A DNA stretch of 63,773 bases from Candidatus Fermentibacterota bacterium (GTDB lineage Bacteria; Fermentibacterota; Fermentibacteria; Fermentibacterales; JCC-6): contig WJMA01000011.1 in assembly GCA_014728175.1 (NCBI GenBank), positions 1-63,773 of the forward strand. Reading direction: 5' to 3'. A model generated the notes under the pieces. That model ran no database searches, was not told where the DNA came from, and saw nothing but the letters and a program-made list of their open reading frames with translations. Position 1 is the stretch's first letter; each line of letters begins with the position of its first letter. Positions 28,562 to 54,469 of the stretch are shown here, one piece after another. The translations under genes and the position numbers were made by a program.

Positions 28562-30016
28562 ATGATTATGAAAACCGAAAATCGCAGGAAGAGAGAAGGC
28601 GGAGCGGCTCTGGTCATAGCGATGGCCATAGCGCTGGTGGTTATGCTGTCTGCCACCCTGCTGCTTAACTACATCTCCGGAATGGTGGACAGGCAGACCC
28701 GCCGGGAATGGCTGGCCCAGGCCCGTCTGGTCCAGCGCAGCGGAGTGGACCAGGCCAGGCATCTCCTGGCCAACGGGCAGATAGATCCCGGCGAGGCCCT
28801 TCCGGGTCTTACCATCGACGGCATCAGGACGGAGTTCACCCGCCCGGTGGTCAGTAACACGCCTCCCCGGGACATCGACGTTGTTCTGGACGGAGTCAGG
28901 GACGCCAAGATAGTTTCCGCCCGGGGCATACTCCTGGCGGGAGCGGTCGAAGACCAGCTGGTAGCGGCCCTGTTCGATACCGACCACGGCTCCATGCTAA
29001 GAGGATTCCCCATCGTTCTGGGGCGTGAGCCGTACGTTTTCGATTGCGTGGGATTCTCCCGGGGAGAGGCGGCGGGAGTGGTTCTGGCCCGTACCGGCTC
29101 CGGCGACCAGGTCTCGGTCATCTATACCGACGGTACCTGCAGAACCTTCACCACCAGGCTCGACCTGTGGGGAAGCTCCTCGGAGTTGAGCACGGCCGTG
29201 GTTAACGGCAAGCCCTGCCTGCTGGTGGACAACGGCAGGAACTGGGCGCACCTGGTTCTCCTGGATTCGCAGGAAGTTCTGACCGGCTGCTCGCCCCCCG
29301 GGACTTCTCCCTGCTTCCTGGAGGACGAGCTCCTGGGCGACTTCAGCCCCCGGACCGGAAATTTGAGCCTACCGGGCCCCCTGGTACGTGATTCCTACCA
29401 GGAGGACATCGACCACGACGGATTAGCCGATCACGTTTGGGTAACCACCTCCTCTGTCTCCTGTTACCTCAGCCGCCGGGACGAGTTGTTCCAGGATCGG
29501 AAGGGTGGGGGTTTGGTCGCGTACTGGGGAAGCTTCGAGCCCTGGTGTGATTTCGCCTACCGCTGGGTGGGTCCCGACGGCAGCTCGGAGTACAGAAGGC
29601 TGTCCTGGGACGGATTCGTCGAGTACAACTCACCCCCCTCCATAATGCAGGAACCATGGCACCATCGGGTGAGGAGCCACGACAATGCCTTCCTGGGCAT
29701 GATGGGCGACAGATGCGTGATAATCTCGGGTTCCTCCACGACTCCGTGGGACGTAGGTCCGGCCGGAGACGTTCTGATCACAGATTTCGACGGATGGGGA
29801 CCCGACGTAACCGAAAGGGTAGAGGAAGGAGGATTCTCGGTCCTCTTCAACCCCCTTGCCGGTGACGGCCAAAGGCTTTCCACGAAGGCCGTCACCGCCA
29901 GGGGGGACCAGCCTCTCACCGGCGGCTTTTACGAGTTTTTCGTCTTCTACGGCCCGCAGGGAGAAAGGCGGGTTCTGGTGAGAGAGGGGACGGAGGGAGC
30001 GCAAGAAGATGAGTAG
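28562..30016 (+). CDS. PilX-like membrane-anchored pilus assembly protein
   Basis: A 484-residue protein whose N-terminus, GGAALVIAMAIALVVM followed by a further hydrophobic stretch, is a single signal/anchor helix. Such a helix is typical of PilX-type minor pilins and lacks the canonical G-F-x-x-x-E cleavage site. The remaining 440 residues contain DIDHDGLADH, a calcium-binding-like repeat also found in FG-GAP-type proteins, and a C-terminal region rich in aromatic residues. It is first in the pilin operon and overlaps the next prepilin gene by 8 bases. ATG 28562 or ATG 28568 may be the start. Confidence 0.6.
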   Translation: MIMKTENRRKREGGAALVIAMAIALVVMLSATLLLNYISGMVDRQTRREWLAQARLVQRSGVDQARHLLANGQIDPGEALPGLTIDGIRTEFTRPVVSNTPPRDIDVVLDGVRDAKIVSARGILLAGAVEDQLVAALFDTDHGSMLRGFPIVLGREPYVFDCVGFSRGEAAGVVLARTGSGDQVSVIYTDGTCRTFTTRLDLWGSSSELSTAVVNGKPCLLVDNGRNWAHLVLLDSQEVLTGCSPPGTSPCFLEDELLGDFSPRTGNLSLPGPLVRDSYQEDIDHDGLADHVWVTTSSVSCYLSRRDELFQDRKGGGLVAYWGSFEPWCDFAYRWVGPDGSSEYRRLSWDGFVEYNSPPSIMQEPWHHRVRSHDNAFLGMMGDRCVIISGSSTTPWDVGPAGDVLITDFDGWGPDVTERVEEGGFSVLFNPLAGDGQRLSTKAVTARGDQPLTGGFYEFFVFYGPQGERRVLVREGTEGAQEDE

Positions 30017-30359
30017 GAACGACGGCTTCACGCTGGTGGAGACCATGGTGGCCTCGGTCATCATTCTGGTCGTGCTTACCTCCCTGGCCCTGTCCGTCCG
30101 TTTCTTCGCCCTCCAGACCAGGAAGGTGGAGAGCCGGAGGTCCGCCCTGGTTATAGCCAACGCCGAGGCCTCGGGGTTCGAGAGCGCGGACACCCTTCCA
30201 GATCCGGGGACGGACAGCCGCACCGTGGTCCTGACCGGAGACGAGTACACGGTAACCAACAGGGTGCTCGCCCCCTCCGACGACTCCCGAAGAATCGATA
30301 TCTCGGTTGCCACCGAGTCCGGTGGCAGCATTAAGTTTAGCAGGATGATGTACAGATGA
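30009..30359 (+). CDS. Type IV prepilin-like protein (PilV type)
   Basis: A 116-residue minor pilin or pseudopilin. The short leader MSRNDG is followed by FTLVETMVASVIILVVL, a textbook prepilin peptidase site and N-methylated helix with the conserved glutamate at position 5 of the mature protein. The globular part is short. The stop overlaps the next frame as ATGA. Confidence 0.85.
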   Translation: MSRNDGFTLVETMVASVIILVVLTSLALSVRFFALQTRKVESRRSALVIANAEASGFESADTLPDPGTDSRTVVLTGDEYTVTNRVLAPSDDSRRIDISVATESGGSIKFSRMMYR

Positions 30360-30382
30360 GAGCACAGACAGGGAGGATGCTT

Positions 30383-30751
30383 ATGAACGCAAGGCTGATC
30401 AAGGCCGGCGGCTTCACTCTGGTCGAGCTGATGATCGCGAGCGTGATTCTCGCGCTTCTGTTGACCAGCATCGGTCTGTTCTTCGGCAACATGATCGAGC
30501 AGTCCGACAAGATGGACGACATGACCAGAGCGTTGGAGCTTTGCCAGCAGGGATTGGAGGAGTTCCGGACGGAGGACGTCCATACTCTTCCCGACGGTGT
30601 GGTGCAAACCGACACCGTCGATAAGTTCACCAGAGAGATAATCCTGGGAACTCCCGACCCGAGCATACCGTCGGCCCGAACCGTGAAGTGCAGGCTAGGC
30701 TGGACCGGGGCCGGTGGTCCCGACTCGACCAGCCTGACCACGATATACTAG
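30383..30751 (+). CDS. Type IV prepilin-like minor pilin
   Basis: Another small prepilin: the leader MNARLIKAGG precedes FTLVELMIASVILALLL. I chose ATG 30383 because GGGAGG lies 7 bases upstream and it gives a ten-residue leader. ATG 30356, overlapping the previous stop, would add nine residues. The mature domain of about 110 residues is of PilV/PilW size. Confidence 0.85.
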   Translation: MNARLIKAGGFTLVELMIASVILALLLTSIGLFFGNMIEQSDKMDDMTRALELCQQGLEEFRTEDVHTLPDGVVQTDTVDKFTREIILGTPDPSIPSARTVKCRLGWTGAGGPDSTSLTTIY

Positions 30752-30767
30752 TTTGGTGGTGAGTAGC

Positions 30768-33700
30768 ATGATAAGAGACCCCAATGACAGACGGGGAATG
30801 AGCCTCGTCGAGCTGATAATAGTGGTAATGATCCTGGGGGTCGTCCTCGCAGGTGTCTTCCTGTTTTTTACCAAGGGTACCGAGAGCTTCCACTTCGCCC
30901 GGCGGCAGAACGAGTTGGATACCGAGGCCCGGATGATACTGGAGAAGATCACCAACGAGCTGATCTGGGCCGGATACATGCCCCAGGGCGGTTGGAGCGG
31001 CGACGACTGGCACCCGGTGGTTCTCGCTTACGAGGACTCCGTGGAGGTCTACTTCGACAAGGAGCCCTGGGAGTCGCTGCAGCCGACCGACTACATCAAG
31101 GTTTACCTTAGCGGCGACGAGGTGACCTGCATCGACCGAGCCGGCAACGACCAGCGAGTGGGCCACTACGCGACCGACCTCGACTTCACCTACCTGGACG
31201 GCGCCGGCAACGACCTGGGCGCTCCCCTGGTGACCGAGGACGAGAGAGACCAGGTGCGCCACATCGGAGTGGACCTTACCCTGACCCAGGACCAGGGGGG
31301 GCACGTATACCAGACGGTGATGCACACTACGATCTCACCCCGCAACCTGGGGGTGAACCACGACATCGAGCCCCTGTTCTTCGCCCCTCCCCAGCTTAAG
31401 GGCAACGTCGCCTTCAACTGCGCGGGGGCGGACACCAATCCCACTCCCACCGTGCACGAGCAGGTTATGATCAGCAAGCTGGTGGACTACGGCTTCACCA
31501 TAAACAGGCTGACCGACGCCATGTGCGACACCTTCGACTACAGCGACATCGACCTGATCATCCTCCGCAGGAGGTCCGATCCCACCATGTCGCACCCGTC
31601 GCTGGGCATGATACATTCGCAGGACAGCATACCCGTGATCACCTTCCAGCCGCAGGACGCCTACCTGATGGGCCTGGGAACGGTAGCGGGCGACTCACTG
31701 GCCGACCACCAGATGAGGGTGCAGGCCGACTACTGGAACTGGCACCCGACGGTGATGGGCTTCGACAGCGTCTTCTACGTGTACGACCCCGACTCGTCGA
31801 ACGTGTACCAGTACGGACTGCTGGGCGATACAGCCCTCGCCGACTCCACATTCACCTCGCCCTACCTCAGCCCGGGATACGCCGGGGTAATCTGCAACGA
31901 CTACCCGGCCGGCTCGCCCGGCGAGAGGAGGGTCTTCTGCAGCGCCTACCAGGCGACCAACTACGACCCAGACTACGGCGAGCAGCTGTTCTACAACCTC
32001 GTCAAGTGGAGCTCGGGTACTCCTCCGGGATCGCCCGGAGTTCCCTTCACCGAGATGGAGGATTTCGAGTCGCCGGCGGGAGGCCAGGCCGACCTCGTTC
32101 TTTGGGACGACCAGGTCGACCCCGACTCCGCCTACTCGGTAAGCCCCATCTACGAGGACTACTTTACGGGGAGCACCTCCCTGGCCTGGGAGTTCGACGA
32201 GGACAGCCCGGGGGGGCAGGTTTTCGTGAGAACCACGACGCCCGACCCGAACGTTCTCCAAATGGACCGCGAGGATACCCCGCCTTACAACTACTGCCGG
32301 AACTTCGCCCGGGTGAACTTGGACATGAGCGCCTACAGCGAGTACAGCGACGAGATACTGCTGTGCTACGATACCAAGAAGCAGAGCGCCGCCAGGCCCG
32401 ATTCGGCCGGGGTGTTCCTCAGGGACACGACCACCGGAACCCTGCAGAAGATAGCGAGCCTGGACTCCACCTACACCGACTGGATAGAGTACCAGATCGA
32501 CTTCGACGAGGCGGTGAGGAACTGCAGCTTCGCCAGCTTCTCCACCCAGGACTGGGAGATAGTCCTGAGCCAGTACGGTGACGACAGCTACGAGAACGGC
32601 CAGGGCAGGCTGTGGGACGACTTCGTAGTGGGCGAGCAGGGCGGCGACTCCACTTGGGTAGAGGGTTGGGTCCATGCCCGTATGGATACCGCTCACGTAG
32701 ACGACTGGGTCCCCGATAAGGTGCCCTCCTCCGGGCTGGGTTATTCCTGGACCACGTGGGCCAACAACCCCAGCACCCAGGAGTACAGCAACGACTCCTG
32801 GTGCTACCTGCAGACGCCCCCGGTCACCATACCCAACATGACCTGGGACACCCCACCGAAGCTGACCTTCATGCACAAGTGGGACACCCAGACCAACTCC
32901 GACGGAGGTTACGTGCAGATAAGGGTCGACGGCGGATTGTGGCAGGACCTCACCCTGCCGGGTACCAATCCCTCCGCCTCCGACTTCCCCGCCGGAGCGG
33001 GAGTGGACATCTTCACCGGCAGCTCTGCCGGCTGGGAGACCTGTGAGGTGGACCTGTCCTCCTACCTGGGCAGCACGGTTGAGTTCCGCTTCGTCTTCGG
33101 TTCCAACGGAACCACGGTGGGCGAGGGCTGGATGTTGGACGACTTCCAGATAAGCGGCCAAGTTACCGGCTTCGCGGTAACCGCGTTCGACTTCCAGGCC
33201 GCCTCCGCTCCCAGCTCGGCCTGGAGCACCCTGGACGTGTACATGGGTGCCACCACCAACACCGAGTTCACCGGAAGCGGCGAGTGGAACAAGGCTTCCA
33301 TGACCCAGGTGGTCAGCGGTGGAACCTACGAAGTAAGCATGTCGGGGTGGAACCGCCTGCAGCTGGACCAGCCGTTCCTGCTGGCTCCGGGACAGAACCT
33401 GCAGGTGAAGATAGAGGTGGACAACAGCGTGGTAGGCAGCGGCAACGACTGGGAGGTGGACGACCTGTCCTCCAGCGCCTACAGGTGCCGCAATGATTAC
33501 GGCGGAAGCGAGCCCACCACCCTCTTCCTCAACTACGACCGGCCCAACGTCAGGGTGGTTACCAACCAGGGCACCCTGACGCCAAACACCGGAACCCTCA
33601 CCAGCGGCGAGGTGCCGATGTCCGACGACTACCAGTACAGCGACTGCGAGATGCTGTACCTCGGCTCCGAGCTGACCGGTGGAGGTGCCGGTTGGACCCA

Positions 33701-34190
33701 CGGCGGGGTGGGCGACGACTGGGAGATTGGCTATCCGCTGTTCACCCCGGACATCGACCCCGCCCTCACTCCGGACAATGGCAACTCCATAGCCGGAAAC
33801 GACCTGACCGATGACGGCTACTACAACGACAACTCCGGGTGCTGGCTGATGTCGCCGGCCTACGACATGCCCACCACGTCGTACGACACGGTCGTGGTGC
33901 GCTACGACAGATGCATCAGGGCCGAGAACGACGTCTGCTGGGTGGAGGTCGGCTTCAGCACCGACGGAAGCCAGCCCGACTCGTCCGACTGGCACGAGGT
34001 CCGGGACTACCCCGGCCCCTCCCACCAGTACTGGGACAACGAGGAGATCAACGTCACCTCCGAGTTCCACGACGCCGAGCTCAACGGGATGAACTACTTC
34101 TTCATAAGGTTCTTCCTGAGCACCGGCTCCTTCCTGGAGGATGGCGGATGGAACCTGGACAACATTCAGTTCTACGGCCGGAACATGTAG
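30768..34190 (+). CDS. Giant prepilin with modular MAM-like ectodomain (PilW-like)
   Basis: A 1140-residue protein with a standard prepilin start, MIRDPNDRRG followed by MSLVELIIVVMILGVV. After a PilW-like region (to about 200) there is an alpha/beta segment (about 205-400; LKGNVAFNCAGAD, DIDLIILRRRSD). Then come at least three beta-rich segments resembling MAM/choice-of-anchor or immune-inhibitor-A domains: about 431-640, 644-795 (WETCEVDLSSYLGSTVEFRF, WMLDDFQISG) and 976-1140 (CWLMSPAYDMP, GGWNLDNIQFYG). Ordinary PilW proteins are near 200-350 residues. Tip adhesin is the likely role; this is inference. ATG 30768 follows GGTGGTGAG. Confidence 0.75.
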   Translation: MIRDPNDRRGMSLVELIIVVMILGVVLAGVFLFFTKGTESFHFARRQNELDTEARMILEKITNELIWAGYMPQGGWSGDDWHPVVLAYEDSVEVYFDKEPWESLQPTDYIKVYLSGDEVTCIDRAGNDQRVGHYATDLDFTYLDGAGNDLGAPLVTEDERDQVRHIGVDLTLTQDQGGHVYQTVMHTTISPRNLGVNHDIEPLFFAPPQLKGNVAFNCAGADTNPTPTVHEQVMISKLVDYGFTINRLTDAMCDTFDYSDIDLIILRRRSDPTMSHPSLGMIHSQDSIPVITFQPQDAYLMGLGTVAGDSLADHQMRVQADYWNWHPTVMGFDSVFYVYDPDSSNVYQYGLLGDTALADSTFTSPYLSPGYAGVICNDYPAGSPGERRVFCSAYQATNYDPDYGEQLFYNLVKWSSGTPPGSPGVPFTEMEDFESPAGGQADLVLWDDQVDPDSAYSVSPIYEDYFTGSTSLAWEFDEDSPGGQVFVRTTTPDPNVLQMDREDTPPYNYCRNFARVNLDMSAYSEYSDEILLCYDTKKQSAARPDSAGVFLRDTTTGTLQKIASLDSTYTDWIEYQIDFDEAVRNCSFASFSTQDWEIVLSQYGDDSYENGQGRLWDDFVVGEQGGDSTWVEGWVHARMDTAHVDDWVPDKVPSSGLGYSWTTWANNPSTQEYSNDSWCYLQTPPVTIPNMTWDTPPKLTFMHKWDTQTNSDGGYVQIRVDGGLWQDLTLPGTNPSASDFPAGAGVDIFTGSSAGWETCEVDLSSYLGSTVEFRFVFGSNGTTVGEGWMLDDFQISGQVTGFAVTAFDFQAASAPSSAWSTLDVYMGATTNTEFTGSGEWNKASMTQVVSGGTYEVSMSGWNRLQLDQPFLLAPGQNLQVKIEVDNSVVGSGNDWEVDDLSSSAYRCRNDYGGSEPTTLFLNYDRPNVRVVTNQGTLTPNTGTLTSGEVPMSDDYQYSDCEMLYLGSELTGGGAGWTHGGVGDDWEIGYPLFTPDIDPALTPDNGNSIAGNDLTDDGYYNDNSGCWLMSPAYDMPTTSYDTVVVRYDRCIRAENDVCWVEVGFSTDGSQPDSSDWHEVRDYPGPSHQYWDNEEINVTSEFHDAELNGMNYFFIRFFLSTGSFLEDGGWNLDNIQFYGRNM

Positions 34191-34202
34191 GGGGTGATGA
34201 CA

Positions 34203-35726
34203 ATGATAACTAACAGCAAGACGAGAAGAGGCTCGGCGCTGGCACTGGTGGTGCTGTTCGGATTGGTACTATCCGTACTAGCTACGGCCGTGTACATGCT
34301 CTTCAAGTCCAACGCTGCGAGCTACCGTTGGAACTACAACAAGCTGCAGGCCAGATACACGGCGGAGGCCGGGGCCAACCTGTCGGTGCACATGATCATG
34401 GGGGGCTCCGACGTCCCCCAGGGCGACGACGCGATAAGGTTCCTGCCGGACAGCGGAGCGGCCGCCACCTGGTACGACATGCCCGGAGAAATGGGTGAGG
34501 TGATGGTCTACGTGGACCCCAGCCATCATAACCCGGACGTCTCCACGTCCAACGCCTACCAGATAAGGGCGTTGGCCAAGCGGTCGATACCCAGCGGGGA
34601 GGGCACCTACGGTATGATAACCGCCGTAGTGCCCGAGAACTTCGCCAGGTTCGCCTGCTTCCTGGACGAGCCAAACCTGGGCGGCTACTACGCCGACGGC
34701 TACCACTTCGACGGGCCGTTCTACGCCAACGGGCCGATATGGATCTACAGCGTGTCGTCAACCTCGGACAACGACCCCTGGTTCTACTCGCTCCAGCTGA
34801 CCAGCTCCTACTACTGCGCGCAGTCAAGCCAGGCCCACGCGACCTCCCCGGTCTACGGCAACCTGACCATACAGCCGGCGGACCGCATGGCCCTGGGCGC
34901 GCCCTACTTCGAGCTCAACGCCGACACCATCCCCTTCGGCAAGAACGAGGTCAACTGGCAGGCGGCCCGGGACGCGGCGCAGTCAGGCGGGCTCTATCTG
35001 ACCACATCGGAGGCCCCCGACGGAACCCGCTTCATAATCTCCAGGGACACGGTGATGTGGCGGAGGTTCGATGGCGGGCCGATATACAAGTGTTGGCTGG
35101 ACACCCTGTCCAACCCCGTGGTCTGGATCGAGAACGATCCTACCGACGCGGTCTACCTGAAAAGCATCCCCGATGCCGCGACGTCGGGGGGAGCGACACA
35201 ATACGGGCTGGACACCCTGCTTACCTTCGGAACCAGGGGCACCATCTACGGCTACGGCCCCCTGGTCTACAAGAGCCAAAACATGGACCCCGAGGTTAAT
35301 CGGGCCATGCTGGGGTTGATATCCGTGGACGGCGACTTCCTGATGGCAGACGACCCGGAAGACAACGGTATGGGAGACTGGGGCGGCGACTTCGAGATCG
35401 AGATGCCCTACCGGTCCGGCGGAGCCGACTGGGGCAACATCCCCTATCACTGCGTCATGATGGTTCTGGAAGGCGAATGGGCGGCCGAGAAGTACTATGA
35501 GCCCTATCCGCAGGTGGACTTCAACATACTGGGAGGCTACATAGTGAACGACGAGGGCCTCACCGGTACCAGCGGCGGAGACGGCTTCAACTCGGTCATC
35601 TACTACGATGTACGGCTGATGTCCATGCACCCGCCGTACTTCCCTCAGACCGGAACCTGGCACGTAATCTACTGGGAAGAGAGGCCCGGCCTTAACGAGT
35701 CGATTATAGGCCAGAACCTCTACTAG
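34203..35726 (+). CDS. PilX/DUF4900-like anchored protein, paralogue 1
   Basis: A 507-residue protein with one N-terminal hydrophobic helix (RRGSALALVVLFGLVLSVLA) and the following ARYTAEAGANLSVHMI, a pattern typical of PilX-N/DUF4900 proteins. The body is beta-rich and aromatic, with HFDGPFYANGPIWI. It ends in MHPPYFPQTGTWHVIYWEE, which matches the end of the next gene. GGGGGTG six bases before ATG 34203 favours this start over GTG 34194 or ATG 34197. It probably takes part in pilus assembly or forms a minor subunit. Confidence 0.6.
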   Translation: MITNSKTRRGSALALVVLFGLVLSVLATAVYMLFKSNAASYRWNYNKLQARYTAEAGANLSVHMIMGGSDVPQGDDAIRFLPDSGAAATWYDMPGEMGEVMVYVDPSHHNPDVSTSNAYQIRALAKRSIPSGEGTYGMITAVVPENFARFACFLDEPNLGGYYADGYHFDGPFYANGPIWIYSVSSTSDNDPWFYSLQLTSSYYCAQSSQAHATSPVYGNLTIQPADRMALGAPYFELNADTIPFGKNEVNWQAARDAAQSGGLYLTTSEAPDGTRFIISRDTVMWRRFDGGPIYKCWLDTLSNPVVWIENDPTDAVYLKSIPDAATSGGATQYGLDTLLTFGTRGTIYGYGPLVYKSQNMDPEVNRAMLGLISVDGDFLMADDPEDNGMGDWGGDFEIEMPYRSGGADWGNIPYHCVMMVLEGEWAAEKYYEPYPQVDFNILGGYIVNDEGLTGTSGGDGFNSVIYYDVRLMSMHPPYFPQTGTWHVIYWEERPGLNESIIGQNLY

Positions 35727-35739
35727 AGAGGGTCCACGG

Positions 35740-37158
35740 GTGCACACAGGTCTTCGGACCACAGGCGGGGGCCGCTCCAGGGGAGTGGCCCTCGCCATAG
35801 TCATTATCTTCGGCTTCGTGCTTGCCGTTCTGGCTACGGTGGTTCTGGTGTTCTTCCAGTCCAACGTCAGCTCCTACTCGTTCGTCAAGAACAGGCTGAA
35901 GGCCCGAATCGCCGCAGAGGCGGGGGCCATGCTGGCCCTGCATATCCTGGAACAGGACTACGACTCCGCCCCCCAGTCCGGCACCCCGTTCCACCTTCCC
36001 GGCGACAGCGCCCAGTGGGTGCGCCTACCGGAGTCCGAAGACCTGGCCTGGGTGGTGGTGGATCCCTGCAACCGAAACCGCGAGGACAACCTGGGCGCCG
36101 TAGAGATCCGCAGCAGGGGAATGGCGGGAGGTATGTCTCGGGACGTGGTGATGCGCGCCTGCCCCGATTACGCTTCCCGCTACGCCCTGATGGTGGACGG
36201 GGACGTGTTGGACTTCTTCGAGGACGGCAGGGTGGTGGACGGCCCGGTGCACGCCAACGGCAGGATCGAGTTCAGCAGCCTCACCCCTGACTCCACCAAC
36301 GATCCCCGGGTACATGCGGTCTCCACCACTGCAGACGGCGGCTTCTACCTGGAGGGTATGGGCAGGATCGAACGGCCCCATCCGCCTGGAAGCAACCTTT
36401 GGGTGAGACCGTACTCCCACCACGTCCTGGGCAGGCCCTACTGGAACGACGCGGTTCCGGAGGCCGATTTCGACCGGATGGTTGAGTACTACCGACGCCT
36501 GGAGCACAACGCGGCGGTCGATGGCACTCAAATAACCGGGGGCGGAAGGCTGCTTTTGGACGGGGACATCGCTCTGTTCAAGGGGGGCCCGGCCGAACCG
36601 GCGGACACCATTCCCATTGCCGAACTGGACGTGCTGTTCGTGCGCAACGGATCGTCCCCCCTGTACGTCAAGACCCTCTCCGAGCCCTCCGAGCCGCTGT
36701 CCATCGTATCCAACGGAAGCATATACATAGCCGGGCTTATTGAGACCTCCTCGGTCAGCGTGGGCGGCCCCCTGGCCCTGATCGCCATGAGGGACGTAAG
36801 GGTGGCCCGGGACCCCGAGGCGTACGGCCAGCCGGACTGGCCCAATCCCTGGAACATAGACACCGACCGCGGGCTGCTGGTCAAGGCGGTGGTGGCGGCC
36901 CTGGGGGGGAGCCTGGAGGCGGAGGACCCCAGCCATCCCAACCCCTCCGGCAGGCTCAGTCTAGTGGGTGGCTTGATTCAGCGCAGGTTCGGCATCCTGG
37001 GCATAGCAGGACACGGCTACGAGCTTTCGATCAGCTACGACCAGGTACTGGCCTCCACCCGCCCTCCGTTCTTCCCTTCCCTGGGCCGGTGGCATATGCT
37101 CTCCTGGGAACAGGATCCGGATTACGGGGGCAGGGACATCGAACAGGACATGTACTAG
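35740..37158 (+). CDS. PilX/DUF4900-like anchored protein, paralogue 2
   Basis: A 472-residue paralogue of the preceding product. Both share RG-x-ALA at the start of the anchor helix, LATVV-like and SNxSSY segments, an AEAGA helix, a V-x-GP-x-x-ANG motif (VVDGPVHANGRIEF here) and a terminal RPPFFPSLGRWHMLSWEQ. The start is GTG 35740 after AGAGAGGG. It is the last gene of the pilin operon and converges with the HD-GYP operon, leaving only 15 bases between stops. Confidence 0.6.
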   Translation: MHTGLRTTGGGRSRGVALAIVIIFGFVLAVLATVVLVFFQSNVSSYSFVKNRLKARIAAEAGAMLALHILEQDYDSAPQSGTPFHLPGDSAQWVRLPESEDLAWVVVDPCNRNREDNLGAVEIRSRGMAGGMSRDVVMRACPDYASRYALMVDGDVLDFFEDGRVVDGPVHANGRIEFSSLTPDSTNDPRVHAVSTTADGGFYLEGMGRIERPHPPGSNLWVRPYSHHVLGRPYWNDAVPEADFDRMVEYYRRLEHNAAVDGTQITGGGRLLLDGDIALFKGGPAEPADTIPIAELDVLFVRNGSSPLYVKTLSEPSEPLSIVSNGSIYIAGLIETSSVSVGGPLALIAMRDVRVARDPEAYGQPDWPNPWNIDTDRGLLVKAVVAALGGSLEAEDPSHPNPSGRLSLVGGLIQRRFGILGIAGHGYELSISYDQVLASTRPPFFPSLGRWHMLSWEQDPDYGGRDIEQDMY

Positions 37159-37173
37159 GCGCGATCGGCCCGT

Positions 37174-38754
37174 CTACGCCCGGTTTCCCACCACGTTTTG
37201 AAGTATTTCCACCACCGAAGGGTCGAATATGCTGCCCGCGCGTCTACTCACCTCATGGTAGGCGGTTTCCGGATCGCTCCTCTCCCTCTCGGTGACATAG
37301 GTGTCGGCTATAGAAAGAATGCGGGATAGAAGGGGAATATCCTCACCCGAAAGGCCGTCGGGCTTTCCGGTTCCGTCGAAGTTCTCCCTTGCGTGGAGTA
37401 TCGTCCTGACCGCCTCTCTGGGCAACTCGAAGCCCCCGTGGCCTTCAGACTCCGCGCCGGGCTCTTCGCCGGTCTGATCGGCGAGCACCATCTTGGGGTC
37501 CAGGTGATGCAGAAGGGCGGCCATGCGCAGGTTCTCCAACTGCAGGCTGTGTAGGCCGAGGCCTCGGCCTATTGCGGTGGCGACCTCGGCGACGCTCTTG
37601 GAGTGGCCCGCCAACCGCTTGTCGGACCTGTCCATCGAGTAAACCATCGCCTCCATGCAGCTCCAGGCCTCCCGATTGACCGTTCTGCGCAGATGAAGGT
37701 CCTGTATGGCCGCCTCGGTCTGGGCGATGAAAGTGTCCAGCCGGGCCCCGTCCAGAATGGTTCCGGCCTCCGGCCACACTTTGACCGTAAGGCCCGCCGA
37801 GCCGGTTCTGCGCAATGGTCTGGTCTCCTCCCGGTCGGGGCGGCCCGGGGGAAGCCGGTAGGAGACGTTCTCCCACCCCACCTCCAGGCGGCGGGATCTG
37901 GAAGCGGCCAGCCATGACTCGGCCAGGGCCCTCAGGGCACCCAGGGGGCTGGAGGCCCTGCTCAGGGCTCCGGTGAGCCTAGCCAGGGCGTTCTCCACGG
38001 CCAGGGCGCTTCCCCTGGTGTACTTGGAGCGCTCCAGGGCGGTGGAGAAGGCAATCTGGGAGACGATAAGGGCCAGGAGCCCGGCCTCCAGACCGATCGA
38101 CTGCAAGGTTCCCCGGCCGGTGGGTCGCTTTATGCCGGTCGCAATCGTGGGCAGCAGCAGGGGGAGAAAGACCAGACCCACCCCGGTCTTGTGCAAGAAA
38201 CGCAAACCCAACCGATGCAGGCTTCGTCCGCGCAGGGTCGAAGGCAGCGAACCCAGGACGCTGTTGGCGGCGACCACGGCCACCAGACAGGCCACTGCGG
38301 CGAGGGCGCTTTCCCAGAAGCCGGCGGGCGGGGAAGGGAGCACGGCGGTTAGAAGAGCCCTTGACAGCCGAAGACCCGTGTAGGCGGCCAGGGTGCCCCC
38401 CGTCGCCCGTAAGGCGCTGTCGCGGGGAGGGGCGCCTATGCGGAGGTGGAACGACAGGGTGCCCAGGAAGCAGGCCAGTACGAAACCTCCCTCGATTAGG
38501 GGGGTGAAACCCGTGAGTACCAACAGGGCCTGTATGCAGGGTAGAAGGGTGATCCTGAACCCCGTGGTGCCGGCGAAGGTGAAGGCGGTCGATCCCAGAA
38601 CGCCGGCCCAGACCAGCAGGAAGGTGGTCAGCTCTATATGGCTGGGCAGGTCGACGTACCTTACGGGGGAGCCGATTATCACCGCCAGGTAGAAGCCGAC
38701 CATCAAGACGCTCAGGTGGTAGTCTCTCTCCGGGTGCGATTCAGATGCCGGCAA
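37174..38754 (-). CDS. Membrane protein with degenerate HD-GYP domain
   Basis: A 526-residue protein with about six hydrophobic segments in the first 240 residues and a C-terminal HD-GYP-like domain (about 375-526). Catalytic features are altered: LLHDxGK becomes LLHHLDPK near 414, the HPxxG segment is missing, and GYP becomes GKP in FDGTGKPDGL near 459. It is therefore unlikely to hydrolyse c-di-GMP and may bind it or act as a partner. The start is TTG 38754, overlapping the upstream HD-GYP gene by 14 bases. Confidence 0.7.
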   Translation of the reverse strand: MPASESHPERDYHLSVLMVGFYLAVIIGSPVRYVDLPSHIELTTFLLVWAGVLGSTAFTFAGTTGFRITLLPCIQALLVLTGFTPLIEGGFVLACFLGTLSFHLRIGAPPRDSALRATGGTLAAYTGLRLSRALLTAVLPSPPAGFWESALAAVACLVAVVAANSVLGSLPSTLRGRSLHRLGLRFLHKTGVGLVFLPLLLPTIATGIKRPTGRGTLQSIGLEAGLLALIVSQIAFSTALERSKYTRGSALAVENALARLTGALSRASSPLGALRALAESWLAASRSRRLEVGWENVSYRLPPGRPDREETRPLRRTGSAGLTVKVWPEAGTILDGARLDTFIAQTEAAIQDLHLRRTVNREAWSCMEAMVYSMDRSDKRLAGHSKSVAEVATAIGRGLGLHSLQLENLRMAALLHHLDPKMVLADQTGEEPGAESEGHGGFELPREAVRTILHARENFDGTGKPDGLSGEDIPLLSRILSIADTYVTERERSDPETAYHEVSRRAGSIFDPSVVEILQNVVGNRA

Positions 38755-40309
38755 GGTTCTCCGCTCCGTTCTCCACCATTTCCTCCAGCGCCCTTACCAC
38801 CCTGGAGTCGAACTGGTGGCCGCTGGCCACCCGGATGATGTCCAGCGCGGTCTGGCTGTCGGAGTGAGCGTGGTAGGACCTGGTGCTGGTTATGGCGTCG
38901 AAGGTGTCGGCGACGGCAACTATCCTGGCCAGGAAAGGTATTTGCCTGCCCGACAGACCGTCGGGATATCCCACCCCGTTCAGCCTCTCGTGATGGCTCC
39001 TTATTATCTCCACTACCCTCTCATATCCGCTGAGGCCGCCCACCGTGCTCGCCCCTTCCTCCGGATGCTTCTCTATGATCTCTCTCTCCCTGGGGGTTAG
39101 AAAACCTTTCTTGGTGAGTATCTCGGTGGGTATGGCTATCTTGCCCAAATCGTGCAGCAGGGCCCCCACCCGGAGCGTTCTCAGATCCTCCTCCGAAAGG
39201 CCCAGCAGCTGCCCCAGCAGATGCGATATCTCCGCCACCCGCAGGGAATGGCCGTGGGTGTAATCGTCCTTGGCGTCCGCCAGTCGGGCCAGCATCACGG
39301 CGGCGGCCAGGAAGGCCTCCTCGCTCTTCAGGGAGTGGCCCATAGCGTGCCAGGAATGCTCCACCAAGTGTACGAAGCTGTCCCGGAGGTCCTCCGAGAA
39401 GTCGGCGGCGGTCCGTGAGCAGCCGCCTTCCAGGAAAAGCATCAGGTTCCGCTCCTCGTTCACCCCCAGGATGACACCGTCCCTTCCCAGTATCCGGGCC
39501 GGCGCGATCCGGTTGGCCCCGGGAAGGGGATCGGGCAGGTCCGACAGATCGACCGTGGCTTCCGTACCACCTCCCCAGGCGATCCAGCCCTCCCTGGTCT
39601 CCGTACGGCTGAGCAGGATGACCTCTCCCTCGCCGTCCCTGGCCAGATAGCTCCGGAGCCGGTGCAGGTACTCATCGGTGGACCCCGCCCGGGAGAGCCT
39701 GGCCGCCAGCCTGTTCTGCAGGCTCATCTCCTCCACTTTCTTGCTGTATCCGGCTACCGCCTTTCCCCTTACGACCAGAACCAGGGCCAGAACAACCAGC
39801 GGAGCGCCGATGAGAAAGGCCGCGCCGGGTCCTCCCTCCGATATAGAGAACACGTAGAGAGGGTACATGGGAGATACGGCCAGGTAAGATAGGAGGTAGC
39901 CCCCCCCGATCTTGGCCGGGGCCACCCGGTCGGAGACCACAGCCCGGTGGATGGTTGTATCGATGGCCGAGAGTATAAGAATCACCATAAGGTAGGCCAC
40001 CGCGGGGTGGAGATGGCCGATCGGATCGATAAGGCTGAAGAGAAGGGTGACCGAGATCTGGGCCAGGCCTCCGAGTAGCTCGGAGAGCTCGAAGCCGTCC
40101 CGGCGGAAGTATCCGTAGACCAACCCGCCGGCCAGACTCAGCAGACAGGCGGGTATCGCCACCAGCGGGGGCTCTAGATGGAAGATGACGAAGTACACTA
40201 CGATGGCGGGCCTGAGGATCAGCCCATTGCCGATCCTTACGGGGAATGCAGAGAGAACGGCCGCGGTTGCGGAAAGTACGGCCGTCGTGGCCAGGGAGAC
40301 GGGATTCAT
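38741..40309 (-). CDS. Membrane-bound HD-GYP c-di-GMP phosphodiesterase
   Basis: A 522-residue protein with an N-terminal block of about six membrane helices (about 1-195), a GAF-like middle part and an intact HD-GYP domain. The latter has HGHSLRVAEI, LLHDLGKIAIP, EKHPEEGA and HHERLNGVGYPDG. It should hydrolyse c-di-GMP to pGpG or GMP at the inner membrane. The start is ATG 40309, overlapping the upstream CAP gene as ATGA; the frame's longer extension upstream is not needed. It lies next to the pilin operon, whose output such a phosphodiesterase might adjust. Confidence 0.85.
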   Translation of the reverse strand: MNPVSLATTAVLSATAAVLSAFPVRIGNGLILRPAIVVYFVIFHLEPPLVAIPACLLSLAGGLVYGYFRRDGFELSELLGGLAQISVTLLFSLIDPIGHLHPAVAYLMVILILSAIDTTIHRAVVSDRVAPAKIGGGYLLSYLAVSPMYPLYVFSISEGGPGAAFLIGAPLVVLALVLVVRGKAVAGYSKKVEEMSLQNRLAARLSRAGSTDEYLHRLRSYLARDGEGEVILLSRTETREGWIAWGGGTEATVDLSDLPDPLPGANRIAPARILGRDGVILGVNEERNLMLFLEGGCSRTAADFSEDLRDSFVHLVEHSWHAMGHSLKSEEAFLAAAVMLARLADAKDDYTHGHSLRVAEISHLLGQLLGLSEEDLRTLRVGALLHDLGKIAIPTEILTKKGFLTPREREIIEKHPEEGASTVGGLSGYERVVEIIRSHHERLNGVGYPDGLSGRQIPFLARIVAVADTFDAITSTRSYHAHSDSQTALDIIRVASGHQFDSRVVRALEEMVENGAENLAGI

Positions 40310-41346
40310 CGGTTTCCGCCCGAGGCTGAAGTGCCGGTAGTCAACACCTGGACCAGCACCATCTGCCAGGAGTCGGGTTCGATCTGCACGGACGCACCCA
40401 TGCCTATCTCGGTCGCGGAGGGGGCTAAGCAACTGAGAAGGTGGAAGGGGCTTATCAGGATCATGCTCCAGGCCTCGGAGTATCCCGAACCCCTCCCTAT
40501 GTTCTCGGCAACGAAGCCCGTACCGTCGGGGAGCAACTCCCGCACAGAGCCGCCCGAGTCGCTGTAATGCTCGACGCCGCCGTTCATTGCCAGCTCGACC
40601 GCCCTGCCCCTGGCCACAGCTTGCAGCCCGCCGTCTTGGCGTAGCGGCCGCAGGCCCTGGGAAATCCTGATGGAGTTGAGCTCGGACAGGATCTCCTCTC
40701 TGGATACGGCCTCGGACTCGCCCATCGCCAGGTTCCCTTCGATAGCGTCTTCCGGAGAGGCTCCGCAGATAACCGGTAATAGTATGGTCACCTCGGGGCC
40801 CCGACCGCCCTCGGCCATGACCTCCAGCCAGTAGACCCCCTCGGTGGGGGTAAAAAGCGAGAAACGGCTCGAGGAATCGGGCCTGAGAACGTCAACCCTC
40901 ATTCCGGGCGAGGAAAGCGCGACCGCGGCTCCCCGCAGAGTATCCAGCCCTTCCAACCGGAAGGAGGCCCGATCCCCGGGCAGGGTGGATAGGGGCAGGC
41001 CTCTTGGAACGCAGCCGGGCAGAGGTGCGGTGACGGTTACCGTCCTGCCCTCCGGCCCCTTCCAGCGGCCGTAGCAGAGGTCCGTTCCTGATGGCGCGGG
41101 AATGGGAGAGTCTTCGGGGTATCCAGCCACCACGTCGCCCACCCGGCCCGGCCAGCCCGCGGACGCGGACAGCACCAGCAGACTGGCGCCGGTGGGCACC
41201 CGTCCCAGGTGCCCTATGGCGGCCGCCAGGCTGTCCAACTCCTCGTACCTGGCCGTATCGCTCTCCGCTCGGGCAACGAGGAGCAGACAAGCGATGACCG
41301 GAGCGAGGCTGACCCAGGATGAAGCTGACCGTGGCATAGATTTCAT
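40306..41346 (-). CDS. Exported CAP/SCP-domain protein
   Basis: A 346-residue protein with a signal peptide (VSLAPVIACLLLVARA) and a C-terminal CAP (cysteine-rich secretory/PR-1) domain. The latter shows ILSELNSIRISQGL, VEHYSDSGG, AENIGRGSGYSEAW and SPFHLLSCL. The preceding 200 residues look beta-rich and match nothing I recognise. ATG 41346 is preferred; TTG 41355 and ATG 41337 are alternatives. It is first in the minus-strand operon with the two HD-GYP genes. The 51-base gap before 41398 must hold both divergent promoters. Confidence 0.75.
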   Translation of the reverse strand: MKSMPRSASSWVSLAPVIACLLLVARAESDTARYEELDSLAAAIGHLGRVPTGASLLVLSASAGWPGRVGDVVAGYPEDSPIPAPSGTDLCYGRWKGPEGRTVTVTAPLPGCVPRGLPLSTLPGDRASFRLEGLDTLRGAAVALSSPGMRVDVLRPDSSSRFSLFTPTEGVYWLEVMAEGGRGPEVTILLPVICGASPEDAIEGNLAMGESEAVSREEILSELNSIRISQGLRPLRQDGGLQAVARGRAVELAMNGGVEHYSDSGGSVRELLPDGTGFVAENIGRGSGYSEAWSMILISPFHLLSCLAPSATEIGMGASVQIEPDSWQMVLVQVLTTGTSASGGNR

Positions 41347-52792: not shown

Positions 52793-53370
52793 TTCCCAAG
52801 GGGAGGGTCGGCATTCTGGGGGGGACCTTCGACCCGCCGCACTTCGGACATCTGGTGCTGGCCCAGGAGGCGGTGGATCGATTCGATCTGTTGAAGGTGC
52901 TGTTCGTACCCACCAGAAGGCCGCCCCACAAGCAAAGCCACCGGCTTACGCCGCTTGGGAAAAGGCTGAGGATGTTGCAATTGTCGGTGGCCGGGGAGGA
53001 TTCCTTCGAGGTGGCCGACCTGGAGAGCACCACCGGATACTCGTACACCGTAGACCTGCTCCAGGCTCTGGACCGGCCGGCCGAGGACACCTTCTTCGTA
53101 ATGGGCATGGACGCTCTGCTGGAACTGGATACATGGAAGCAGCCCGACCGGCTTTTGGGTATGGCCAGCGTGGTGGTGGGAACCCGTCCCGGTTACGACC
53201 CCGAGGGCGTACGCCGGGAGTTCGTAGAATCGGTCCGGATCTTCGAGATACCCGGGCTTTGGATATCTTCCACTCAGGTGAGGGAGAGGTTTGCCCTGGG
53301 TAGGCCGACCAAATATCTTATCCCCGAATCGGCTCGAACGTTCATTCTCAGGGAGGCCATTTATGGCTGA
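52789..53370 (+). CDS. nadD: Nicotinate-mononucleotide adenylyltransferase
   Basis: Adenylates nicotinate mononucleotide in NAD+ synthesis. The 193-residue product has GILGGTFDPPHFGHL with the nucleotidyltransferase HxGH motif, PTRRPPHKQ, FVMGMDALLELDTW and ISSTQVRERFALG. TTG 52789 overlaps the bamD stop as TTGA, and the 3' end overlaps pilT by 8 bases. Its substrate supply and downstream step connect it to nadE at 5.4 kb. Confidence 0.93.
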   Translation: MIPKGRVGILGGTFDPPHFGHLVLAQEAVDRFDLLKVLFVPTRRPPHKQSHRLTPLGKRLRMLQLSVAGEDSFEVADLESTTGYSYTVDLLQALDRPAEDTFFVMGMDALLELDTWKQPDRLLGMASVVVGTRPGYDPEGVRREFVESVRIFEIPGLWISSTQVRERFALGRPTKYLIPESARTFILREAIYG

Positions 53371-54469
53371 GGGCGTCGACAAGATCCTGACCATGCTGCT
53401 CGACGAAGATGTCAGCGACATTCATTTCAAGGTCAACCATGCTCCCATAGTGCGGATCTCGGGCAGAATAGTACACTCCCAGGATTTCAACGCGCTGGGT
53501 CCGGACCATGTGGACCGGATCGCCAGAGACCTGATGACCGAGAAGCAGATAAAAGACTACGAGCGGGGGGAGGAGGTGGACCTGGCCCATTCGGTTCCCG
53601 GGAAGGCCAGGTTCAGGGTGAACATATTCCACCAGAGGGGCAGCCCGGCGATCGTCATGAGGAAGATACCCTTCGAGATACCGGAGATGGAGGACCTTGG
53701 CCTGCCCATGGTGGTCAAAGACATAGCCCTGGAGCAGAGGGGGCTGGTCCTGGTCACCGGTGCGACCGGCAGCGGCAAGTCCACCACTCTGGCCTCGATG
53801 ATAGAGCATATAAACTGTAACCGCGAGACCCACATCGTGACCATCGAGGATCCCATCGAATTCATACACACGGACGAGCTGGCCAGCATCTGCCAGAGAG
53901 AGGTGGGCATAGATACGCCCAACTGGCACAGCGCGCTGAGGTCGGTGTTCAGACAGGACCCCGACGTGATCCTGATAGGTGAGATGCGGGACAAGGAAAC
54001 GGCGTCGGTGGCCCTGACCGGAGCGGAGACCGGCCATCTGGTCATGAGCACCCTCCATACCCTGGATGCCCAGGAGACGGTCAACAGAATAATAGACCTG
54101 TTCTCGGCCGCGCAGCAGATGCAGGTGAGGGTGCAATTGGGAGGCCTTTTGAAGGCGGTGATAAGCCAGCGTCTTCTTCCCTCTCCGGACGGGGAGAGCA
54201 GGGTTCTGGCGGCCGAGGTGATGCTGCACACCGCTCTGATGCAGGACTGTATAAGCAACCCCGAGAAAACGGCTTCCATTCGGGACATGATGGACGAAAG
54301 TGGTGAGAAGTACGGGATGCAGACCTTCGATATGGCTCTGATCAAACTTTTATCAGAGAATAAGATAGACACGGAGACGGCCCTGGCGGCCGCGACCAAC
54401 CCCACCACGCTTCAGCTGAAGCTCGATGGGGTACAGAAGATATCCGAGTGGGAGCAGAGAGGACCCTAG
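53363..54469 (+). CDS. pilT: Type IV pilus retraction ATPase PilT
   Basis: A 368-residue hexameric ATPase that powers pilus retraction and twitching. Walker A GATGSGKSTT is near residue 133, the Asp box (THIVTIEDPIEF) near 155, Walker B VILIGEMRD near 202, and the His box MSTLHTLDA near 228. The PilT motif AIRNLI reads AVISQRL in this protein. ATG 53363 is the start; the frame is open upstream inside nadD. It is far from the pilin operon but in the same window, so pili here are probably retractile. Confidence 0.93.
   Translation: MAEGVDKILTMLLDEDVSDIHFKVNHAPIVRISGRIVHSQDFNALGPDHVDRIARDLMTEKQIKDYERGEEVDLAHSVPGKARFRVNIFHQRGSPAIVMRKIPFEIPEMEDLGLPMVVKDIALEQRGLVLVTGATGSGKSTTLASMIEHINCNRETHIVTIEDPIEFIHTDELASICQREVGIDTPNWHSALRSVFRQDPDVILIGEMRDKETASVALTGAETGHLVMSTLHTLDAQETVNRIIDLFSAAQQMQVRVQLGGLLKAVISQRLLPSPDGESRVLAAEVMLHTALMQDCISNPEKTASIRDMMDESGEKYGMQTFDMALIKLLSENKIDTETALAAATNPTTLQLKLDGVQKISEWEQRGP

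Follow-up and report, generated by a model that had tools for sequence, protein, structure and literature searches.

The window, i.e., the whole stretch of 63,773 nucleotides analysed here, contains a tight operon of six genes (A to F) at 28562-37158, whose adjacent members either overlap or are separated by 3-16 bases (Table 1). This operon is common to genomes across the order. An earlier note on this DNA had assigned the fourth gene, D, to a prepilin of 1140 amino acids, and this was confirmed with exact coordinates: ORF analysis found one reading frame on the forward strand, from the ATG at 30768 to the stop codon ending at 34190, uninterrupted by any internal stop. A ribosome-binding-like sequence (GGTGGTGAG) lies immediately 5' of the ATG. 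The product scored over the cut-offs of both Pfam N_methyl (PF07963, residues 6-31, E 2.7e-6) and NCBIfam TIGR02532.

The N-terminus of D reads MIRDPNDRRG^MSLVELIIVVMILG, with MIRDPNDRRG^MSLVE as the cleavage region. The same note described this as a textbook class III leader. Indeed, Gly at position -1, Glu at +5 and the hydrophobic helix are all present, but the residue at +1 is Met11 instead of Phe; this sole deviation makes the leader slightly atypical. The note had also named in advance the absence of the peptidase site in relatives as one observation that would speak against its reading. The site proved to be invariant in all 26 aligned relatives, with G10, M11, L13 and E15 unchanged throughout. 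With the leader Gly, Glu at +5, the N-terminal helix, and a prepilin peptidase and pilus machine encoded in the same genome (see below), D is, judged by its sequence, a type IV prepilin.

The N-termini of A, E and F lack Glu5, and their assignment to the PilX/GspK type was made partly by eye; no Pfam or NCBIfam family matched the N-terminus of E. Genes E and F are paralogous (28.5% identity, E 1.8e-48). Two genes for HD-domain proteins on the reverse strand (37174-40432) converge on the operon. The one at 38741-40432 encodes an HD domain with a GYP-like motif (HHERLNGVGYPDG), and the one at 37174-38754 looks degenerate by eye. Since the linkage of these genes to the pilin operon is retained in several relatives, it suggests a connection between c-di-GMP and the pili.

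Table 1. Genes of the minor-pilin operon and modules of the protein encoded by gene D
Feature	Coordinates	Strand	Evidence and remarks
Gene A, PilX/GspK-type N-terminus and weak FG-GAP (propeller-like) repeats	28562-30016	+	NF037980 (GspK N-terminal) E 0.007, far below cut-off
Gene B, small prepilin, GspI-like	30009-30359	+	PF07963 E 3.6e-7; T2SSI (PF02501) E 0.0013, below cut-off
Gene C, small prepilin	30356-30751	+	PF07963 E 2.9e-6
Gene D, giant prepilin	30768-34190	+	PF07963 and TIGR02532 over cut-off
D, class III leader, residues 1-10 (MIRDPNDRRG)	30768-30797	+	Predicted cleavage after Gly10; G10 invariant in 26/26 relatives
D, pilin module, residues 11-203: alpha1 helix (MSLVELIIVVMILG...) and head, ending in the conserved TTISPRNLGVNH linker	30798-31376	+	PF07963, TIGR02532
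D, alpha/beta module, residues 204-430, family without a name	31377-32057	+	Conserved in 26/26 aligned
D, beta module JR1, residues 431-637, jelly-roll-like ending RLWDDFVVG	32058-32678	+	Alignment
D, InhA-like MAM module, residues 638-797	32679-33158	+	PF20773 E 2.3e-6 for the segment scanned alone
D, module X, residues 798-972, unclassified	33159-33683	+	Present in 16/26 relatives
D, C-terminal module, residues 973-1140, MAM/reelin-subrepeat-like, GGWNLDN ending	33684-34187	+	Present in 26/26 relatives
Gene E, 510-aa membrane-anchored protein, PilX/GspK-type N-terminus without Glu5	34194-35726	+	N-terminal type by eye; kept in the order
Gene F, 472-aa PilX/GspK-type protein	35740-37158	+	NF037980 E 3.2e-4 and DUF4900 E 0.0011, both below cut-off; kept in the order

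Modules of the giant prepilin and their variation among relatives

Relatives of D were sought in 146 genomes. Matches covering most of the protein were confined to the same order, in a sample that holds no genome sharing only class or phylum with the window; Fermentibacterota may be a phylum with a single order, which would fit this gap. Scans of viral contigs yielded no relatives, and the sole match in a scan of genome contigs was a MAM-bearing locus of Verrucomicrobia. We aligned 26 homologues of 785-1466 aa and took the module boundaries from the alignments. The pilin module is the best-conserved part (mean column identity 62%), followed by the C-terminal module and module X (49% each), the alpha/beta module (44%) and the MAM module (41%). 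Weak matches to PRK10557, which we take to be PilW-like, were seen in 6 of the 26 members (best E 0.029). GspH matched 19 of them (best E 1.5e-5), and in the member scanned in detail this match covered only the N-terminal helix and stayed under the cut-off. About 940 residues follow the pilin module in D, and there is good support for the proposal that a prepilin anchor bears a large ectodomain of several domains; homologues occur across the order. A full-length model predicted without an alignment had a mean pLDDT of 35.6, and alpha1 alone (pLDDT 71-79) was usable.

An alpha/beta segment had been noticed near residues 205-400, and it corresponds to a conserved module at 204-430. A search of 385 genomes detected this module in 28 of the 31 that belong to the order and have a completeness of 80% or more, whereas the 354 others had none. 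Within this sample it is restricted to this protein and order, and it occurs once per genome, except for one genome with two copies. It had no match in Pfam or among PDB sequences, and a low-confidence model (mean pLDDT 39.5, no alignment) displayed a beta-alpha-beta-like pattern. The module contains Asn, Gly, Asp, Trp and Glu residues that are invariant in all relatives. Such residues would be in keeping with an ectodomain that is enzymatic or captures nutrients or DNA, the alpha/beta module being, for example, hydrolase- or amidotransferase-like. However, neither Pfam nor the PDB sequences offered an enzyme family, no catalytic motif was identified, and a fold search with the low-confidence model had no match below E 0.001. 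We therefore regard an enzymatic or capturing ectodomain as highly improbable.

The earlier note had counted at least three MAM-like segments. For residues 638-797 this is borne out: in a scan of the whole protein InhA-like_MAM reached E 2.5e-5 and 24.3 bits, just under the gathering score, and when the segment was scanned alone PF20773 reached 27.7 bits, over its cut-off of 26.9. Residues 690-800 align to PF20773 as well as to a C-terminal stretch of NF038111. The best match of the MAM-module profile in the PDB was Immune inhibitor A (4yu5), a weak one (E 0.076). Segment 973-1138 is homologous to 638-797 (hhalign probability 97.5, E 7e-12). The MAM profile, which was built from the family of D, also matches it in D itself at 1e-6. 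No Pfam family matched the C-terminal module of D directly; Reelin_subrepeat-B matched weakly in 9 of the 26 members (best E 0.0016). Residues 431-637 were not supported as a third MAM module by profile comparison, in which they gave hhalign probabilities (local mode) of only 0.7 and 1.1 against the two MAM-like modules. Between the latter lies module X (798-972), which was missing from the domains listed earlier and is a separate module by alignment; it showed no Pfam match over cut-off and no profile similarity to MAM. Profile searches of the PDB with the alpha/beta, X and C-terminal modules returned chance-level matches only. Taken together, these comparisons support two MAM-like modules in D, not three.

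Profile mapping revealed four layouts on the same anchor, with individual modules gained or lost separately from one relative to another. In layout i, found in families f2 and f3 and genera g4 and g5, the pilin and alpha/beta modules are followed by JR1 with a nested module, INS, and then by MAM, X and the C-terminal module. These proteins have about 1300 aa; the length of 1466 aa in f2 assumes the earliest possible start codon, whereas the true start probably lies further downstream. Layout ii is that of the window's protein, with 1140 aa and the same modules except INS. In most members of genus g2 (layout iii) the pilin and alpha/beta modules are joined by MAM and the C-terminal module, and in the other members (layout iv) by X and the C-terminal module. 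INS comprises about 190 residues, nested in the JR1 of relatives near residue 564, and is homologous to JR1 (hhalign 90-93%).

A downstream paralogue of about 990 aa, G, was observed in relatives (L034:16237-19212, L038:3108-6089, L041:15133-18102). It carries the pilin module, JR1, INS and mostly MAM and the C-terminal module, and lacks the alpha/beta module and X. In genus g8 the downstream paralogue is an ungrafted, bare pilin of 199 aa (L033:14984-15583). In the window, G does not adjoin the operon. A further fragment with MAM similarity was located at the end of contig C54. Because f2, f3 and G all carry INS, its loss in the window's lineage is the simpler reading. The variation among relatives is, at the level of sequence, direct evidence of modularity. 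It also makes them an unusually clear evolutionary series, in which anchor and end module stay constant, other modules are nested, deleted or swapped from genus to genus, and an ungrafted paralogue occurs.

The pilus machine and the scarcity of PilY1

The genome (2.6 Mb, 67 contigs) contains, according to Pfam matches, one cluster with PilM, PilO and the only secretin, an AMIN-type PilQ, and a second with two PilB-type ATPases, PilT, PilC and PilA-type major pilins. There is one prepilin peptidase (PF01478), and three of the only five N_methyl matches fall into the operon of D. A further PilT-type T2SSE ATPase is encoded in the window at 53366-54208 (+), on the same contig and away from the minor-pilin operon. 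Directly upstream of pilB, pilB, pilT and pilC lies a gene (G000:C65, L079:63-4580) whose product of 1505 aa contains SprA_N (PF14349), a domain associated with type IX secretion/gliding.

Some features of this gene set could also be read as a type II secretion system, in which case D would be a pseudopilin that guides the secretion of exoproteins and has no part in adhesion. Four PilB/GspE-type ATPases are present, and weak matches to GspI, GspH and GspK were obtained with some of the operon proteins. Yet all of these Gsp matches remain below the family cut-offs, and several involve the N-terminal helix only. Moreover, the single secretin is of the AMIN type and stands beside PilM and PilO, and PilT-type ATPases are present. 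Given this one secretin in its PilM/PilO cluster and the PilT-type ATPases, we read the machine, from its gene content, as a type IVa pilus and not as a type II secretion system, and a pseudopilin role for D is very unlikely.

Descriptions of the type IVa pilus of diderm bacteria usually include a PilY1 adhesin that sits on the minor-pilin complex. We searched 42 genomes of the order, some of them incomplete, for PF05567, the PilY1 family, and found it in a single one. It was detected neither in D nor in its genome. The sole match (G005:C19:8110-9009, L080) lies in an open frame of 2487 aa and is strong (E 3.2e-50), indicating that the search is able to detect PF05567 in this order, although the 14 named control genomes yielded no match.

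Gene A may encode a pilin-anchored FG-GAP propeller, which would be unusual. Among its orthologues FG-GAP_3 matched weakly in 13 of 15 (best E 0.0018) and FG-GAP proper in 7 of 15 (best E 0.0006), and the protein carries motifs of the DxDxDG type (DIDHDGLAD in the window's copy). In view of the near-absence of PilY1 and the propeller-like gene A, the role of PilY1 may be carried by the pilins A and D. Going one step further, we tentatively consider it possible that the pilus tip of this order is built without a separate PilY1. The roles would then be split between A (FG-GAP-like and possibly calcium-binding) and D, often together with G, and the adhesin would be covalently part of the fibre instead of docking onto it. 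An order in which nearly every genome lacks a detectable PilY1, and which conserves a giant modular pilin in its minor-pilin operon, is a natural setting for testing how tip adhesion is constructed.

Proposed role and comparison with known systems

The type IV pilus is a hair-like fibre used for gripping and pulling. In our view, D is likely to belong to the type IVa pilus as a giant modular minor pilin and to serve as an adhesin displayed at the tip. Its membership in the pilus is strengthened by the minor-pilin operon and by the type IVa machine in the genome, and the rarity of PilY1 in the order adds weight to a reading as adhesin or sensor. Display at the tip is inferred by analogy with the modular pilin PilB of Streptococcus sanguinis (see below), and the adhesive role from the type of modules. 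MAM-like modules occur on secreted peptidases as well, and membership in this family alone does not imply adhesion. After cleavage, the alpha1 helix of D would pack with the other minor pilins in the priming or tip complex. The ectodomain would be too bulky for the body of the fibre and would thus be shown at its tip. There, the beta modules, the MAM-like ones among them, could bind a surface, a polysaccharide or a partner cell. Retraction driven by PilT would then pull on this contact. The variable middle modules would alter the ligand from genus to genus, and the conserved pilin, alpha/beta and C-terminal modules would retain a role in assembly and presentation.

The same pattern of conserved pilin, alpha/beta and C-terminal modules around a variable middle would also suit a structural initiator that primes assembly or gates the secretin, its ectodomain acting as a plug or spacer and not in adhesion. 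Minor pilins and PilY1 were reported to form a priming complex that reaches the secretin cavity (PMC13190605), and the order-wide alpha/beta module could still fill such a role. A change of ligands, however, accounts more easily than a constant plug for the swapping of MAM-like and other beta modules, and we judge a purely structural function to be unlikely.

As a probable modular tip adhesin, D has its closest counterparts in published modular pilins. A survey of this class comprised more than 1,200 proteins in 264 architectures and cited a protein of 860 residues as the extreme multi-domain case (PMC8179133). D, with 1140 aa, is larger, and its relatives reach about 1300 and at most 1466 aa. 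PilB of Streptococcus sanguinis is a modular pilin adhesin that, when modelled, fits only at the pilus tip; like D, PilB and PilC of this species start with a pilin module, to which functional modules of other kinds are joined, with predicted tip display and ligand binding and with modules swapped on a conserved anchor (PMC8179133). Unlike these proteins, D belongs to a type IVa pilus genome with a secretin, and D and its relatives carry MAM-like, nested and order-specific alpha/beta modules where the modular pilins of the survey carry vWA or lectin modules (PMC8179133).

With the PilY1/PilC tip adhesin (PF05567) D shares the proposed role at the tip, variable effectors on a constant carrier and the link to a minor-pilin operon. 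PilY1, however, is not a pilin and ends in a C-terminal PF05567 propeller, whereas D has a prepilin site and no PF05567. The C-terminal MAM-like domains of InhA (4yu5) and M36 peptidases resemble residues 690-800 of D (PF20773, NF038111), but D has no peptidase domain, and its MAM module is borne on a pilin. A literature search for MAM on minor pilins or for jelly-roll PilW adhesins found no papers.

The earlier remark that prepilin anchors seldom bear modules of this size is fair: in 25 genomes of other families, a biased sample, only 4 of the approximately 150 N_methyl matches listed lie in open frames of at least 900 codons. An independent giant modular pilin of another family, a prepilin of 1798 aa with bacterial Ig-like repeats, was observed beside small prepilins at L087:2242-7635 (-). 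This protein and those at L089 (1017 aa) and L090 (970 aa), also of other families, have a prepilin N-terminus like that of D, and L087 and L090 adjoin small prepilins. Their modules differ from those of D, being bacterial Ig-like in L087 and L090, with fibronectin III in L090 and none recognised in L089, and the alpha/beta module was found in none of the families of these genomes in the 385-genome search. In light of the published modular pilins and of these giant prepilins with other modules, D is a variant within a known class.
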